A stretch of 64,000 nucleotides of DNA, from the NCBI RefSeq assembly GCF_000022205.1, contig NC_012029.1, positions 682,001-746,000 on the forward strand. The letters are read 5' to 3'. The translations under genes were made by a program, and so were the position numbers. This DNA comes from Halorubrum lacusprofundi ATCC 49239. Lineage in GTDB: Archaea > Halobacteriota > Halobacteria > Halobacteriales > Haloferacaceae. Below, one piece after another: positions 8,468-14,992 of the stretch. The notes beneath the pieces are model-generated. The model did not search any database. It was not told where the DNA came from and saw nothing but the letters and a program-made list of their open reading frames with translations. How positions within the stretch are numbered: position 1 is the first letter of the stretch; the number at the start of each line of letters is the position of its first letter.

Positions 8468-10408
8468 ATGTTACGTCGACACACTGACGGAACCGACGAC
8501 AACAGCCGCCACATCGGTCGGCGGCAATGGCTCTCCGCACTCGGCATCGCCGGCGTCGCGACGCTGGCCGGCTGTTCCGGAAACGAGGGGGACGGCGGAG
8601 ACGGAAGCGACGGCAGCGACGGCGGAAATGGAAGCGACGGCAGCGACGGAAGTGACGGAAGCGACGGCAGCGACGGCGGCAACAGCGTTGAAGTCGGCAA
8701 TTTCCCACAGTTCGGCGTCGATGACCTGTACGGCGAGGAAGTCGCTCGCAACCTCGCGCGGCAGGCATTCGAGCAGTCCGAGTACGACTACAGCTTCGAC
8801 GGCGGCGATCTGATCACCCCCGAGGGCGATCAGGTCGAAATCGATATCTATCACAGCGCGGGACAGGAGACCTCACAGCTCACCGCCGAATTCATCGCCC
8901 AGGAGCTCGGCAACAATCTCGGCATCAACGTCGTCGTTGAGGCGATCGATGGTACCCGGTTCAACAACGAGTACTGGACCGCCGAGCCGCAGGGTGGCAC
9001 CGATACGGTCAACGGCGAGGATGTCGAGTGGGCGAACCCGACGCCGCAGAACCCCGGCCCGCAGTCGGTCACGAGCAACGAGCCGTGGGACATGTCGATC
9101 GTGTTCGGGCTGAACACCTACCCGCTCAACCCGCTGACGAACGAGGTGTTCTTCGACGGCCCCAACTCCTTTTATAACCCCGTTGGCTACTACCCCGAGT
9201 TCGACGCCACCGGGCTGTTCGAGGAGGCCCGACAGGCGACGAGCCGCGACGAGCTTCGCGAATCGTTTGTCGAGATCTTCGAGAACCTCGCCCAAGAGCA
9301 GCCGTACATCACGCTGCTTTTCAGCGACGATCTGGTCGGCTACAACCCCGACCTGAACGGCCCCATCGAGAACTTCTCGAACGGCTGGGACCTGCCCGCG
9401 TGGCACTTCAACGACCCGAGCGTCTCCGGTTCCTACGACACCGTCACGTCGGCCGGGTTCACGACTTTGAACCCGCTGTACAATACCGAAAACGGCGCTG
9501 GGAACGCGATCGCTCGCGCACTCGATCAGGGGTACACCTTCGACGAGAATCAGGAGTACTTCCCGCTCCTGTACGACATGTCCACCGAGGACGGCAAGGT
9601 GTGGACGTTCGAGGTCCGCGAGAACCTCCAGTTCAGCGAGCCGTACGGACAGGTCACGGCGGAGGACTTCGTCTACCTGATTCAGGAGCTCCACCAGAGC
9701 GAGTGGGCGAATACGGCGGCGTCGGCCAGCTGGGACGGCGTCGAGGTCGAACAGACCGGCGAGTTCGAGTTCCAGGCCACCCTCGAAACCGCCAATCTCC
9801 TGTGGCCCGAGACGTACGACCCGCTGCTGTACCCGATCCCGCGCGACCTCGTCGAGCCGTACGTTGAGGAGGAGGACGTCGACGGGCTCGAACAGGACGA
9901 GGAACTGCTCGAACTCCAGTTCACCGGGAATCTCGGCGCGTTCACGCTCGACGAGTGGAATCGCGGTTCCGGGACTCAATACACCCGTAACGACGAGTAC
10001 TACCTCCGCGACATCAACGAGGGGCCGGACCTGTTCTCTGAGGGGCCGCTGTTCGAGGAGGCCTCGATCAGCGTCGTCGAGGAGCAAGCGTCCCGACTCG
10101 GCGCGTTAGAGACCGGGGAGGCCGACTCCGCGGCGATCCCGCCGGAGCAGTTCGAGTCGTACGACGAAGACGAAAATGTGACTGTGCGAAAGATCCCCAC
10201 ACCGTACAACATGATCATCTCCGTGAACCAGCGCGATAACGGCTGGCAGAGCGGGCCGGGGAACCTGTTTCAGATCACCGAGTTCCGGCAGGCGGTGGCG
10301 GCGGCGGTCAGCAAACAGCAGCTCATCGATGGCGTCTACCGCGGGCTCGCATCGACGCACTTCACCTGGCAGCCCCGCTGGTCCGAGTTCTACCCGGGCG
10401 ACGAGTAG
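8468..10408 (+). CDS. Peptide/nickel-type ABC transporter binding lipoprotein, halves in permuted order
   Basis: This 646-residue extracellular solute-binding protein is of family SBP_bac_5. The N-terminus has a twin-arginine-type lipoprotein signal: RRQ at 18-20, a hydrophobic stretch, and lipobox LAGC with C36. A Gly/Ser/Asp linker follows (40-72). The order after that is unusual. Residues about 77-314 look like the second half of the family (EIDIYHSAGQ, LGINVVVEAIDG, DMSIVFGLNTYPLNP, the RDELRESFVEIF helix). Residues 315-646 look like the first half (TLNPLYNT, the signature GKVWTFEVRENLQF at 376-389, VTAEDFVYLIQ, FRQAVAAAVSKQQLI). The protein ends where the canonical second half would begin. 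The whole domain seems present, so the gene appears circularly permuted rather than broken. Downstream dppBCDF-type genes complete the importer. Confidence 0.88.
   Translation: MLRRHTDGTDDNSRHIGRRQWLSALGIAGVATLAGCSGNEGDGGDGSDGSDGGNGSDGSDGSDGSDGSDGGNSVEVGNFPQFGVDDLYGEEVARNLARQAFEQSEYDYSFDGGDLITPEGDQVEIDIYHSAGQETSQLTAEFIAQELGNNLGINVVVEAIDGTRFNNEYWTAEPQGGTDTVNGEDVEWANPTPQNPGPQSVTSNEPWDMSIVFGLNTYPLNPLTNEVFFDGPNSFYNPVGYYPEFDATGLFEEARQATSRDELRESFVEIFENLAQEQPYITLLFSDDLVGYNPDLNGPIENFSNGWDLPAWHFNDPSVSGSYDTVTSAGFTTLNPLYNTENGAGNAIARALDQGYTFDENQEYFPLLYDMSTEDGKVWTFEVRENLQFSEPYGQVTAEDFVYLIQELHQSEWANTAASASWDGVEVEQTGEFEFQATLETANLLWPETYDPLLYPIPRDLVEPYVEEEDVDGLEQDEELLELQFTGNLGAFTLDEWNRGSGTQYTRNDEYYLRDINEGPDLFSEGPLFEEASISVVEEQASRLGALETGEADSAAIPPEQFESYDEDENVTVRKIPTPYNMIISVNQRDNGWQSGPGNLFQITEFRQAVAAAVSKQQLIDGVYRGLASTHFTWQPRWSEFYPGDE
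8590..8690. repeat. Low-complexity GGC/GAC/AGC codon repeat (Gly-Ser-Asp linker)
   Basis: Repeated codons encode about ten GSDG-like units between the lipobox cysteine and the folded domain of the binding protein. This kind of surface tether is frequent in haloarchaeal lipoproteins. Confidence 0.75.
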
Positions 10409-10447: not shown

Positions 10448-11422
10448 ATGGGATTTGGAAGATACGTTACCGCTCGCGTTCTCTGGGCCGGAGTGGTATC
10501 GCTCATCATCACGACGATCACGTTCTTCCTCGTCTCCGCCGCGCCGAATCCGGCGGTCCAAGAGGCGGCGACGCAGGCCGCGCTACAGGGCGGCGACCCG
10601 GCCGCGGCCGCCGAGCGAGCGCGCGAACTCCGCGGGCTCGATCAGCCTCTGTACGTTCGGTACATGGACTTCATCGAAGGCGTCTACACGCTCGACTGGG
10701 GCTGGTCTCGGAGCCGAAGTCAGCCCGTGACGCAGGCGCTGGGCGAGGGGCTCTACTACACCGCACAGTACTCCGTGCCGTGGACGATTCTGACGGTCCT
10801 GATCGGTCCGGTAGTCGGCGTCTACTCCGCGGCGAACATGTACTCTTGGAAGGACCACGCCGCGACCGGGTTCGCGTTCTTCGGGTACGCCATCCCGAAC
10901 TTCTTTTTCGGGATCATCCTGCTTTTGATCTTCGGCGTCTGGCTGGAGGTTATCCCGATCGTGTACAACACGGACGTGTCGGTGTTCAGCGTACAGAACG
11001 CCGTGCAGCTGTCGGTACCGGTGTTCGTGCTGGTCACCGGATCGATCGGCGCGGTCATGCGCGTGTCGCGCAACGAGTCGGCGGAGTTCCAGAACGCCGA
11101 GTTCATGAAGACGGCGAAGGCCAAGGGCGTCTCGCCGCTGCGCGCGTACGCGTACCACGTCATGCGGCCGACGCTCGTGCCGCTGTCGACGACCCTCGTC
11201 GGACAGCTGCTGGCGCTGTTCCTCGGGTCGTCGCTGCTCGTAGAGGTCGTGTTCGGCATCCCCGGGATCGGCCGAGTGACGTACAACGCACTGATCGCGC
11301 AGGACACGAACCTCCTGTTGGGCTCGACGCTGGCGTTCACGTTTATCGCCGTGATCGGGAACCTCTTGGAGGACCTCGTGTTCACGGTGCTCGATCCGCG
11401 GATCAGCTTCGACGACAGATAA
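10448..11422 (+). CDS. dppB: Peptide ABC transporter permease, DppB type
   Basis: This is a 324-residue integral membrane protein with about six transmembrane segments. The first is at 12-31, followed by an extracellular loop containing LRGLDQPLYVRYMDFI, typical of DppB/OppB. The inner-membrane-component loop that contacts the ATPases (EAA motif) is visible as EFMKTAKAKGVSPLRAYAYHVMRP. The C-terminal LDPRISFDDR resembles the usual DPR..Y ending. It starts 39 bp after the binding-protein stop and is followed 15 bp later by the second permease. Confidence 0.9.
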   Translation: MGFGRYVTARVLWAGVVSLIITTITFFLVSAAPNPAVQEAATQAALQGGDPAAAAERARELRGLDQPLYVRYMDFIEGVYTLDWGWSRSRSQPVTQALGEGLYYTAQYSVPWTILTVLIGPVVGVYSAANMYSWKDHAATGFAFFGYAIPNFFFGIILLLIFGVWLEVIPIVYNTDVSVFSVQNAVQLSVPVFVLVTGSIGAVMRVSRNESAEFQNAEFMKTAKAKGVSPLRAYAYHVMRPTLVPLSTTLVGQLLALFLGSSLLVEVVFGIPGIGRVTYNALIAQDTNLLLGSTLAFTFIAVIGNLLEDLVFTVLDPRISFDDR

Positions 11423-11437
11423 CTTGAGGACACAGAC

Positions 11438-12622
11438 ATGGCAACACAGAAACCGGAACGATTCGATCAGGTCGACTGGAACAACATCTCACGGTCGCGG
11501 TGGTTCGACCTGTCGATCAACAGCATCGGCATGCTCGCCACTGCGGTTCCGCTCCTGTTGGTCGCGCTGTCTGACTGGCAGATCCTCGACGAACGGACGC
11601 CGACGCTCGAGCCCATCGGTCTGGAATGGGACATTGGGACCGTCGATTACCTGTTCATCTTCACGTTGCTGCTGTTCGCGTTCTACATCGTCTTGCCGCT
11701 GTTCCAGAACCCGCGGCGGACGAAGTACTACTGGCGAGAGTTCAAGCGCAACCGGCCGGCGGTCGTGAGCCTCGGCTGGCTCGCGATCGTGTTCGTCGGA
11801 GGGATCGTCGGGCCGTTCTTCATCAGTGCACCCGAACAGAGCATCCTCACCGGCTACCAGCCCCCCGTCTTCCTCTCGATCGATCAGTCGTACGTCTCGA
11901 CGTGCGTCGGCGAGATAGCTACCGGCCAGTGTCACGGGACGTGGCAACACCCCCTCGGCACGACGGCCGGCGGGAAAGATATCTTCGCGGGGATCGTTCA
12001 CGGGATGACGATCAGCATGCAGATCGGCTTCATCACGACGACGATCGTGGCCTCGATCGGCATCACCTTCGGGACGGTCAGCGCGTACGCCGGCGGCTGG
12101 GCCGACGAGTTGATGATGCGGTTCGTCGACATCGTGCTCTCGTTCCCGACGCTTTTGATGTTCCTGCTCATCCTCTACATCTACGGCGCCGGGCTCGGGA
12201 TGTTCATCCTCGTCTTCGCGGCGTTCGCGTGGGGCGGCACCGCGCGGTACGTCCGCAGCAAGTCGCTGTCGATCTCCGAAGAGGAGTTCATCAAGGCGAA
12301 CCGGATCAGCGGCGCGAGCACCTATCGCGTCGTGAGACGCCACGTCGTTCCAAACGCGGCCAGCAGCATCATCACGCAGCTCACGCTGCTCATTCCGGGA
12401 TTCCTGCTCGCCGAGGCGCAGCTCGCGTTCCTCGGGCTCGGCGATTCCACGATCCCCTCGTGGGGCCAGCTCATCTCGGCCGGCCGGAGCGATCTCTCGT
12501 TCGCGCCGTGGATCGTCTTGGTGCCCGGTATCGTGCTGTTCTTGACCATTCTGGCGTTCAACTTCCTCGGTGACGCGCTGCTAGACGCCTTAAACCCCGA
12601 AGCGGAGGCGGAGAGCGCATAA
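11438..12622 (+). CDS. dppC: Peptide ABC transporter permease, DppC type, with N-terminal membrane extension
   Basis: This 394-residue permease is longer than most DppC proteins (about 300). Roughly the first 110 residues add two hydrophobic segments (about 26-44 and 70-88) and a basic loop (NPRRTKYYWREFKRNRPA) before the usual first helix. The permease core has HPLGTTAGGKDIFAGIVHG, close to the family HPLGTD..GRD.. motif. The EAA loop is EEFIKANRISGASTYRVVRRHVVP, and PSWGQLIS lies near the end. The terminal sequence FLGDALLDALNPEAEA is typical. Its TAA overlaps the dppD ATG by one base. Confidence 0.9.
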   Translation: MATQKPERFDQVDWNNISRSRWFDLSINSIGMLATAVPLLLVALSDWQILDERTPTLEPIGLEWDIGTVDYLFIFTLLLFAFYIVLPLFQNPRRTKYYWREFKRNRPAVVSLGWLAIVFVGGIVGPFFISAPEQSILTGYQPPVFLSIDQSYVSTCVGEIATGQCHGTWQHPLGTTAGGKDIFAGIVHGMTISMQIGFITTTIVASIGITFGTVSAYAGGWADELMMRFVDIVLSFPTLLMFLLILYIYGAGLGMFILVFAAFAWGGTARYVRSKSLSISEEEFIKANRISGASTYRVVRRHVVPNAASSIITQLTLLIPGFLLAEAQLAFLGLGDSTIPSWGQLISAGRSDLSFAPWIVLVPGIVLFLTILAFNFLGDALLDALNPEAEAESA

Positions 12623-13662
12623 TGTCTACCCCACTGCTCGAGGTCGAAGACCTCACGACGACGTTCAGCACCGACAACGGAGACCTCACGGCCGTCGACG
12701 GCGTCGACTTCGTCGTCGACGAGGGGGAGACCGTCTGTATCGTCGGGGAGTCGGGCTCCGGAAAGACCGTCGCGACCGAGTCGATCACACGGATCGTCAA
12801 GGAGCCGCCGGGCCGCGTCGAGGGAACGGTCCGGTTCAAGGGTCGCGACCTGATGGCGATGTCCGACGAAGAGCTCCGTCAGATCCGCGGAAACGGGATC
12901 GCGCACATCTTCCAGAACCCACAGGAGGCGATGAACCACTGTTACACCGTGGGGTGGCAGATCGCCGAGGCGCTCCAGATCCACCAAGACGTTTCGGACG
13001 AAGCGGCGCGGGCACGGGCCGTCGACCTACTCGACCGGGTCGGGATCGCCAACGCGAGCGCACGCTTCGACGATTATCCCCACGAGTTCTCCGGCGGCCA
13101 GAAACAGCGCGTGATGATCGCGATGGCGCTCGTGGGCGATCCCGACCTGCTGATCGCCGACGAGCCGACGACGGCGCTCGACGTGACGGTGCAAGCGCAG
13201 ATACTCAAGCTGCTCGACGAGCTCCAAGACGAGTTCGACATGGGGATCCTCTTTGTGACCCACGATCTCGGAGTGGTCGCGCAGATCGCCGACCGAATCG
13301 TGGTGATGTACGCCGGGAAGGTGATGGAGCGCGGTGGGGTGCTCGACATCTTCGAGCATCCGGCGCACCCGTACACCCAGCAGCTGCTGAACTGCGTCCC
13401 GGAGATCGGCGGGAACGAGGGCGGGATACCCGGCACGCTGCCGAGCCCACACGACCCGCCGGATGGCTGTCGGTTCGCGCCGCGGTGTTCGTACGCGGAG
13501 CAGGCGTGTCGGACCGGCGGACAGCCCGAGGAGTGTGAGGTGAGTCCCAGTCAGCGAGTCTCCTGTATCCACTACCGCGACGGTCGCGATCCGTCCATGC
13601 TCCGCGAGAACACCCCGGGCGCCGAGCAGGGCTCGAACGAGGTGAGCTCGGCAGATGACTGA
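12622..13662 (+). CDS. dppD: Peptide ABC transporter ATP-binding protein, DppD type
   Basis: This 346-residue ATPase has Walker A GESGSGKT (near 39-46), the Q-loop in [11 protein letters not shown], the ABC signature FSGGQKQR, Walker [14 protein letters not shown], and the H-loop in [12 protein letters not shown]. The C-terminus has the oligopeptide-transporter cysteine motif ([14 protein letters not shown] ... [14 protein letters not shown]), which in some relatives binds an iron-sulfur cluster. It overlaps dppF by 8 nt. Confidence 0.93.
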
Positions 13663-14992
13663 CGAGCCGATACTCTCGGTCCGGGATCTGAAGAAACACT
13701 ATCCGCTCCGGAAGGGGATCTTCAACCGGCAGGTCGGCGCCGCGAAGGCGGTCGACGGGATCAGCTTCGACATCGCGTCCGGCGAGACGCTGGGGCTGGT
13801 CGGCGAGTCCGGCTGCGGGAAGTCAACCGCCGCGAGTTCCGTCATCCGCTTGGAGGAGCCGACTGCCGGCGAGGTCGTGTTCAACGGAAACGGCCGGGGC
13901 GGTGCGACCCGCAACCCGGATGGCACCCACCCGAACGACGTGACCAAGTTTTCCGACGCGGAGCTCAAGCGATTCCGCCGCGGGGCCCAGATGATCTTCC
14001 AAGATCCGGCGTCGAGCTTCGACCCGCGGATGACGGTCGGCAGCGCGGTCGCGGAGATGCTCGAGATCCACGGAATGTCGGACCGTCACCGGCGGCGGGC
14101 GATCGTCGAGGACCTGCTCGAACGCGTCGGGCTCTCCGCGGTGGATTACGACCGATACCCCCACGAGTTCTCCGGCGGCCAGAAACAGCGGATCGCGCTG
14201 GCCCGGGCACTCGTGTTGAACCCGGATCTCATCATCGCCGACGAGCCCGTCTCGGCGCTCGACGTGTCGATCCAAGCGGAGATCCTCTCGCTCATCGACG
14301 ACCTCCAAGCGGAGTTCGACCTCTCGATGTTGTTCATCAGCCACGATATGTCCGTGATCCGCCGGATCTGTGACCGTGTCGCGGTGATGTACCTCGGTGA
14401 AATTGTCGAGGTCGGGCCGACCGACGAGATCTTCGCCGACCCGCAACACCCCTACACCGAGGCGTTGCTGTCGTCGATCCCGACGCCGGATCCGCGGTCG
14501 AGCGTCGGCGGGATCGAACTCACCGGCACGGTACCGAGCCCGACGAATCCGCCGAGCGGCTGCCGGTTCCACACGCGGTGTCACCGCGTCATCCAGCCGG
14601 AGGGGATCGACATCGACCAGTCCGACTGGCGCGGGATACTGAACTTCCGCGATCGCGTCGCCGCCGGTCAGGTCGATGTCGAGAGCATCCGGGAGAACAT
14701 CGTCGTCGAGGGGGGTGCGGCGAGCGACAACGATGTGAGAGAACAGCTCCGCAAAGAGTTCGACATCGGTGAACGGCTCGACGATCCCGAGATCGAAGAT
14801 ACCCTCCGGGAGGTGATCGACCGACTCCTCGCTCGCGACGACGAGGAGGCGGCAGAGCTGCTCTCGGATCGGTTCAGTACCCCGTGCGCGGAGACGACTC
14901 CGGAGCGAACCGTTCACGCTGAGGGACACGAATCGGCGTGTCTCCGCCACGAGTCGGAGCATGTGGTCGCGGCGAGTCCGATCGACGGCTGA
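13655..14992 (+). CDS. dppF: Peptide ABC transporter ATP-binding protein, DppF type, with insertion in the C-terminal cysteine region
   Basis: This is the second ATPase of the importer, 445 residues against about 330 for common relatives. Walker A is GESGCGKST, the signature FSGGQKQR, Walker B LIIADEPVSALDV, and the switch region LFISHDMSVI. The C-terminal cysteine motif begins as GCRFHTRCHRV, but its second part (CAETTPER ... ESACLRHESE) is delayed by about 110 mostly acidic, helical residues (about 313-420). That insertion contains a DPEIEDTLREVIDRLL helix. The reading frame is intact, so this looks like a real domain insertion. It is the last gene of the operon and converges with the next gene across 26 bp. 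Confidence 0.9.
   Translation: MTDEPILSVRDLKKHYPLRKGIFNRQVGAAKAVDGISFDIASGETLGLVGESGCGKSTAASSVIRLEEPTAGEVVFNGNGRGGATRNPDGTHPNDVTKFSDAELKRFRRGAQMIFQDPASSFDPRMTVGSAVAEMLEIHGMSDRHRRRAIVEDLLERVGLSAVDYDRYPHEFSGGQKQRIALARALVLNPDLIIADEPVSALDVSIQAEILSLIDDLQAEFDLSMLFISHDMSVIRRICDRVAVMYLGEIVEVGPTDEIFADPQHPYTEALLSSIPTPDPRSSVGGIELTGTVPSPTNPPSGCRFHTRCHRVIQPEGIDIDQSDWRGILNFRDRVAAGQVDVESIRENIVVEGGAASDNDVREQLRKEFDIGERLDDPEIEDTLREVIDRLLARDDEEAAELLSDRFSTPCAETTPERTVHAEGHESACLRHESEHVVAASPIDG

Follow-up and report, generated by a model that had tools for sequence, protein, structure and literature searches.

The gene at positions 8468 to 10408 of the window (the whole stretch of 64,000 nucleotides of Halorubrum lacusprofundi ATCC 49239 that was analysed) raises the question of whether a solute-binding lipoprotein is encoded there with its two halves in exchanged order and, if so, how this order arose and whether the protein is functional. 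The initial annotation, made from the letters alone, had proposed a circular permutation of a peptide-binding (SBP_bac_5) protein by duplication and trimming, with misassembly as the main alternative. As it had read, both halves lie in one frame behind a well-placed signal peptide, and its coordinates were right to a few residues; the ORF of 646 aa is intact, with a Tat signal and a lipobox ahead of the linker (C-terminal half 79-314, junction about 315-317, N-terminal half 318-646). The gene is composed as follows:

8468..10408, plus strand: SBP_bac_5 (peptide/nickel-type) Tat lipoprotein of circularly permuted order, 646 aa, from the ORF, its translation, the rotated PF00496 matches and the permuted orthologues.
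8468..8575, plus strand: predicted Tat signal peptide (GRRQWLSALGIAGVATLAGC) up to the lipobox Cys36, from the sequence and its likeness to many lipoprotein signals encoded in this genome.
8576..8701, plus strand: flexible Gly/Asp/Ser linker, residues 37-78, from the sequence and repeat analysis.
8702..9409, plus strand: ancestral C-terminal half, residues 79-314, now first (PF00496 266-352; 1xoc 332-402 and 409-502; 71% identical to the canonical L027).
9410..9418, plus strand: new internal junction, where the old C-terminus (..GWDLPAWHF) is joined to the old N-terminus (SVSGSYDTV..), from the orthologue alignment and the alignment of the linker end to L091 and L093.
9419..10405, plus strand: ancestral N-terminal half, residues 318-646, now last, with the end RWSEFYPGDE (PF00496 13-251; 1xoc 15-321; 72% identical to the canonical L027).

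The whole protein scores 140.3 bits against PF00496, for which the curated cut-off is 32.4, indicating that it is an SBP_bac_5 homologue; the collinear order of the family is absent, with profile positions 266-352 lying ahead of 13-251. Aligned separately, as the initial annotation had suggested, residues 77-314 match the former segment (E 1e-5) and residues 315-646 the latter (E 3e-34). The two halves thus match complementary regions rather than the same region twice, which rules out a duplication of one half. A profile of the permuted group was also aligned with the solved B. subtilis AppA (PDB 1xoc_A): positions 242-572 fall on AppA residues 15-321, 22-94 on 332-402, and 134-227 on 409-502, so that the chain is cleanly rotated, its break lying between AppA 321 and 332. 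Compared with a homologue, two complete and complementary segments have changed places; homologues of canonical order exist, and the permuted order is inherited; profile, solved-structure and orthologue alignments agree in bearing out the proposed permutation. As translated from its gene, the protein is an SBP_bac_5 homologue with a permuted topology and not a collinear member of the family. Ahead of the two halves, a twin Arg at residues 18-19 (GRRQWL), a hydrophobic stretch and the lipobox LAGC containing Cys36 predict, from sequence only, that it is exported and tethered to the membrane, and a DNA tandem repeat at 8591-8679, with periods of 9 and 27 bp, encodes the Gly/Asp/Ser linker.

The same order was to be sought in related haloarchaea, and tblastn of the two halves against loci from independent assemblies found it in about 17 Halorubrum species, including H. 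lipolyticum, H. kocurii, H. salsamenti, H. halophilum, H. saccharovorum, H. sodomense, H. coriense, H. ezzemoulense and H. yunnanense. The permuted orthologues have essentially identical termini (a FPxFGV... start and a QPRWSxFYPxxx end) and one internal junction, whose limits are defined by the alignment of 16 permuted and two canonical orthologues. The canonical order is found in H. alkaliphilum (L072) and H. tebenquichense (L065). Permuted loci (the window, L049, L050, L052, L054 and L060) and canonical ones (L072 and L190) have a common gene order, lysA-dapF-dapE-NYN domain gene (minus strand)-SBP-permease B-permease C-ATPase D-ATPase F, of which the last four genes are, in the window:

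10448..11422, plus strand: permease B of the adjoining ABC importer, an ORF conserved beside permuted and canonical SBPs.
11438..12622, plus strand: permease C, an ORF in the conserved neighbourhood.
12622..13662, plus strand: ATPase D, an ORF in the conserved neighbourhood.
13655..14992, plus strand: ATPase F, an ORF in the conserved neighbourhood.

Because this gene order is shared and the permuted clade is nested within canonical ones, the comparison indicates that the permutation happened in place, in an orthologue at the same locus. One further canonical orthologue of the window gene (L189, G016:C1:408000-414500) is apparently broken, its match being split over two frames (396 and 584 aa).

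Circular permutation has two main accepted models (PMC3320104): duplication followed by trimming, and fission followed by fusion. The initial annotation had proposed the first, and it is the mechanism that we favour, because of a linker scar at one permuted locus, junction linkers at two others and a tandem SBP protein, although it is unproven for the window gene. The internal junction of L064 has a stretch rich in Gly, Glu and Asp, which can be aligned with the lipobox linker of the canonical sister L091 (GGADESA..GLPEDIEEPPAVEGSY versus GGTDTSGEQGIPEETDELPSVSGSY); fusion of a second copy, linker included, to the end of the first would be expected to leave such a stretch. The junctions of L143 and L156 hold similar low-complexity linkers. 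In the window gene, the junction still carries the end of the linker, PSVSGSYDTVT, a segment lost from the canonical Halorubrum orthologues. The tandem protein, encoded on the minus strand at L188 (G025:C1:2361000-2368000), is 1197 aa long, with a twin-Arg signal followed by two SBP_bac_5 domains that are 69.5% identical. It resembles, by sequence, a subfamily with canonical (L178, L182) and permuted (L181) members, and reads as a natural duplication-fusion in a subfamily other than the window's; within the window gene's own orthologue group, no intermediate with a duplicated domain is known. On the favoured model, an in-frame tandem duplication of the mature domain together with its linker would come first, the N-terminal half of the first copy would then be lost, fusing signal and linker to the first C-terminal half, and a stop would finally arise after the N-terminal half of the second copy. 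The repetitive Gly/Asp/Ser linker and Tat export, in which folding comes first, probably allow such trimming to be tolerated.

The permuted gene might instead have arisen via fission and re-fusion of half-genes, or via the cut-and-paste of one segment, a course that we judge the less likely one while granting it real weight. Fission-fusion is likewise an accepted route to circular permutation (PMC3320104), and in Halorubrum the cut site and the new ends are clean and free of leftover duplicated sequence. However, no lone half-genes were seen beside any locus, and both the lipobox-linker-like stretch retained at the L064 junction and the existence of an in-frame tandem pair speak for duplication and trimming.

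The window gene is not an isolated case, a point that the initial annotation had not raised. A 400-genome search of the class with the junction query, complemented by further loci and a generic SBP_bac_5 profile, revealed many other permuted SBP_bac_5 proteins in haloarchaea. A hand count that omits the unusual genome G034 gives about 18 permuted genes among 55 sampled haloarchaeal SBP_bac_5 genes, i.e. about a third. Three of the six PF00496 genes of the window genome are permuted, the window gene and those at C2:~72.6-74.3 kb and C2:~140.8-142.6 kb; the latter two (L149, G000:C2:71500-75500, and L148, G000:C2:139500-144000) belong to other lineages than the window gene's. Among about 48 genes from 53 genomes of other Halobacteriota, ~47 are canonical and one is permuted (L197:796-3162), with profile positions 150-353 before 28-133, a Sec-type signal and a PGF-CTERM C-terminal anchor. 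Haloarchaeal permutants have been cut at no fewer than three sites. In the window group, L016 and L150, the cut precedes the helix downstream of the FRQA... segment; in L064, L071, L103-L117, the L143 group, L152, L155 and L158, it comes directly behind this helix; and in L122+4929, L181 and L185, it lies farther along the chain, close to the last helix. The cut site of L197 differs again from these. A further candidate, L166, proved to be an off-frame artefact and was dropped, and SBP_bac_8 (PF13416), examined for permutation, gave no reversed pair.

The number of events was estimated on trees of sequences rotated to the canonical order, the main one being inferred with the mixture model LG+C20 (72 rows, 499 columns). 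On this tree the permuted/canonical label changes 11 times (bootstrap range 10-11), at least eight changes being forced by well-supported branches; a larger quick tree gives nine changes, seven of them forced, and separate trees of the N- and C-terminal halves force eight and seven, respectively. The exact total is uncertain because the deep branches are long. The permuted Halorubrum clade (support 100/99) joins the canonical Halorubrum at 98/98 and is nested in canonical rows; in the N-half tree its exact sister is without resolution (support 51), yet the clade still lies among canonical rows. The switch between permuted and canonical Halorubrum is among the securest, all of which separate near neighbours; the others lie between L064 and L091 (100/97), between L155/L062- and L176 (100/100), between L016 and L044/L177 (100/97), and at L181 inside the L178/L182 group (100/100). 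The tree and the AU test reject a single permuted clade, both for the window clade with L064 (p 0.0001) and for the full set of permuted rows in the window gene's larger family (p 0.0004). As for the divergent 'B' rows, six in number (L071, L103, L104, L107, L109, L116), one origin is compatible with the data (AU p 0.30).

Note that parsimony on an unrooted tree cannot tell gain from reversal, so that the family might have been permuted once, in ancient times, and canonical forms regained later through reversal or an exchange of halves. We consider this improbable: the canonical order prevails in the other Halobacteriota as counted above and in the solved relatives, the cut sites vary among lineages, the trees of the two halves agree, and reversal would itself require a new permutation. 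Permutation recurred independently in other haloarchaeal SBP lineages. That haloarchaeal SBP lipoproteins form a hot spot, with at least eight independent SBP_bac_5 permutations in at least three loops and a permuted LivJ-type family besides, all produced by duplication and trimming and tolerated thanks to folding before Tat export and a long, repeat-encoded linker, is a broader proposal to which we give even weight for and against.

Pairwise NG86 dN/dS values among the permuted Halorubrum orthologues range from 0.12 to 0.35, indicating purifying selection. Some relatives have lost the adjoining importer genes, as might be expected if the rearranged gene were a decaying, non-functional pseudogene, but this reading is very hard to sustain given these dN/dS values, a frame open in all species with a permuted orthologue, an intact lipobox and an operon conserved in most species. 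An assembly error, or a local inversion or translocation artefact that swapped the halves of a normal gene, found no support, and misassembly is excluded, as is chance, by the identical order and termini in so many independent Halorubrum assemblies and by the several further permuted lineages. We conclude with considerable confidence that the window gene encodes an OppA/DppA-type (SBP_bac_5) solute-binding lipoprotein that is circularly permuted by nature, is inherited in this form and is under functional constraint.

How the exchanged order would be accommodated in the fold was addressed by the structure prediction that the initial annotation had suggested. The AlphaFold model of the permuted protein has low confidence (pLDDT 63.8, pTM 0.53); in it, the N-terminal half, the larger of the two, matches AppA and DppA-type folds and aligns to AppA with a VIA Z of 16.5 (289 residues, rmsd 4.4), while the C-terminal half is barely covered. 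The model of a canonical orthologue has a pLDDT of 47.7, which precluded a direct superposition of both forms. Going by the homology and by the larger half, the permuted protein would keep the usual bilobed (cluster C) SBP fold. The N- and C-termini lie close together in the OppA/DppA fold; the old termini would be bridged by a few residues, and the new ones would fall in the loop formed by AppA residues 321-332, placing the lipid tether there and not at the original N-terminus. Tat, the main secretion route in haloarchaea, exports folded proteins (PMC2910488), and this may relax the constraints on chain order. A strict dependence of permutation on Tat is ruled out by L197, which is permuted and has a Sec-type signal.

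Family and operon suggest that the lipoprotein captures a peptide-like solute, which it would deliver to the adjoining BCDF importer. Five species (L051, L053, L056, L059, L063), representing at least two lineages, lack the permease and ATPase genes behind the SBP gene, and searches of genomes G003, G006 and G012 gave best permease B matches of 31-32%, versus 86-95% elsewhere, i.e. no close permease B. The SBP frame is nevertheless open in the species lacking the adjoining transporter genes. Since these five species keep the SBP, its role perhaps does not depend solely on BCDF, and a second role or partner is possible.

The protein of the window gene is homologous over nearly its whole chain to the SBP_bac_5 peptide/nickel-binding proteins, such as AppA (1xoc) and E. 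coli OppA, DppA and NikA, and shares with this family its place, as a lipoprotein, beside BCDF-type importer genes; it differs from them in its exchanged halves and in having the chain break and the tether at the AppA 321-332 loop. A literature search, with subscription papers outside its scope, found no report of a permuted OppA/DppA-type protein or of recurrence in haloarchaea. A permuted SBP is already known: Treponema pallidum Tp0684 (MglB-2) is a circularly permuted glucose-binding lipoprotein (PMC4990184), and thus likewise a natural permutation of an ABC solute-binding lipoprotein. MglB-2, however, has a Cluster B sugar-binding fold in which three N-lobe strands are shifted to the C-terminus (PMC4990184), and it is described as one permuted family, unlike the recurrent in-place switching between close relatives found here. 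For saposin/swaposin and DNA methyltransferases (PMC3320104), a tandem-duplication intermediate is predicted, whereas here a tandem SBP and a linker scar are found; these proteins are not exported ABC binding proteins, and no repeated recurrence in one archaeal class is reported for them.

The surprising part is the recurrence. Natural circular permutations are usually single, ancient events that set distant homologues apart. In the present case, orthologues of the two orders are ~70% identical and occupy the same operon within one genus, and the switch has recurred many times within the family. Nature thus offers ordinary and swapped versions for direct comparison; such replicated natural experiments bear on how far a binding protein is sensitive to its chain connectivity, its folding order or the position of its tether, and they make the duplication-and-trimming model testable. 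Automatic annotation does not flag the permutation, Pfam giving SBP_bac_5 only.

The LivJ-type family (Peripla_BP_6) is likewise permuted in several haloarchaeal genera, with profile positions 188-312 before 1-191 (L192, L193, L194, L195 and L196). The copy of the window genome (L193, G000:C2:2081264-2083861) is interrupted by a transposase-like ORF.
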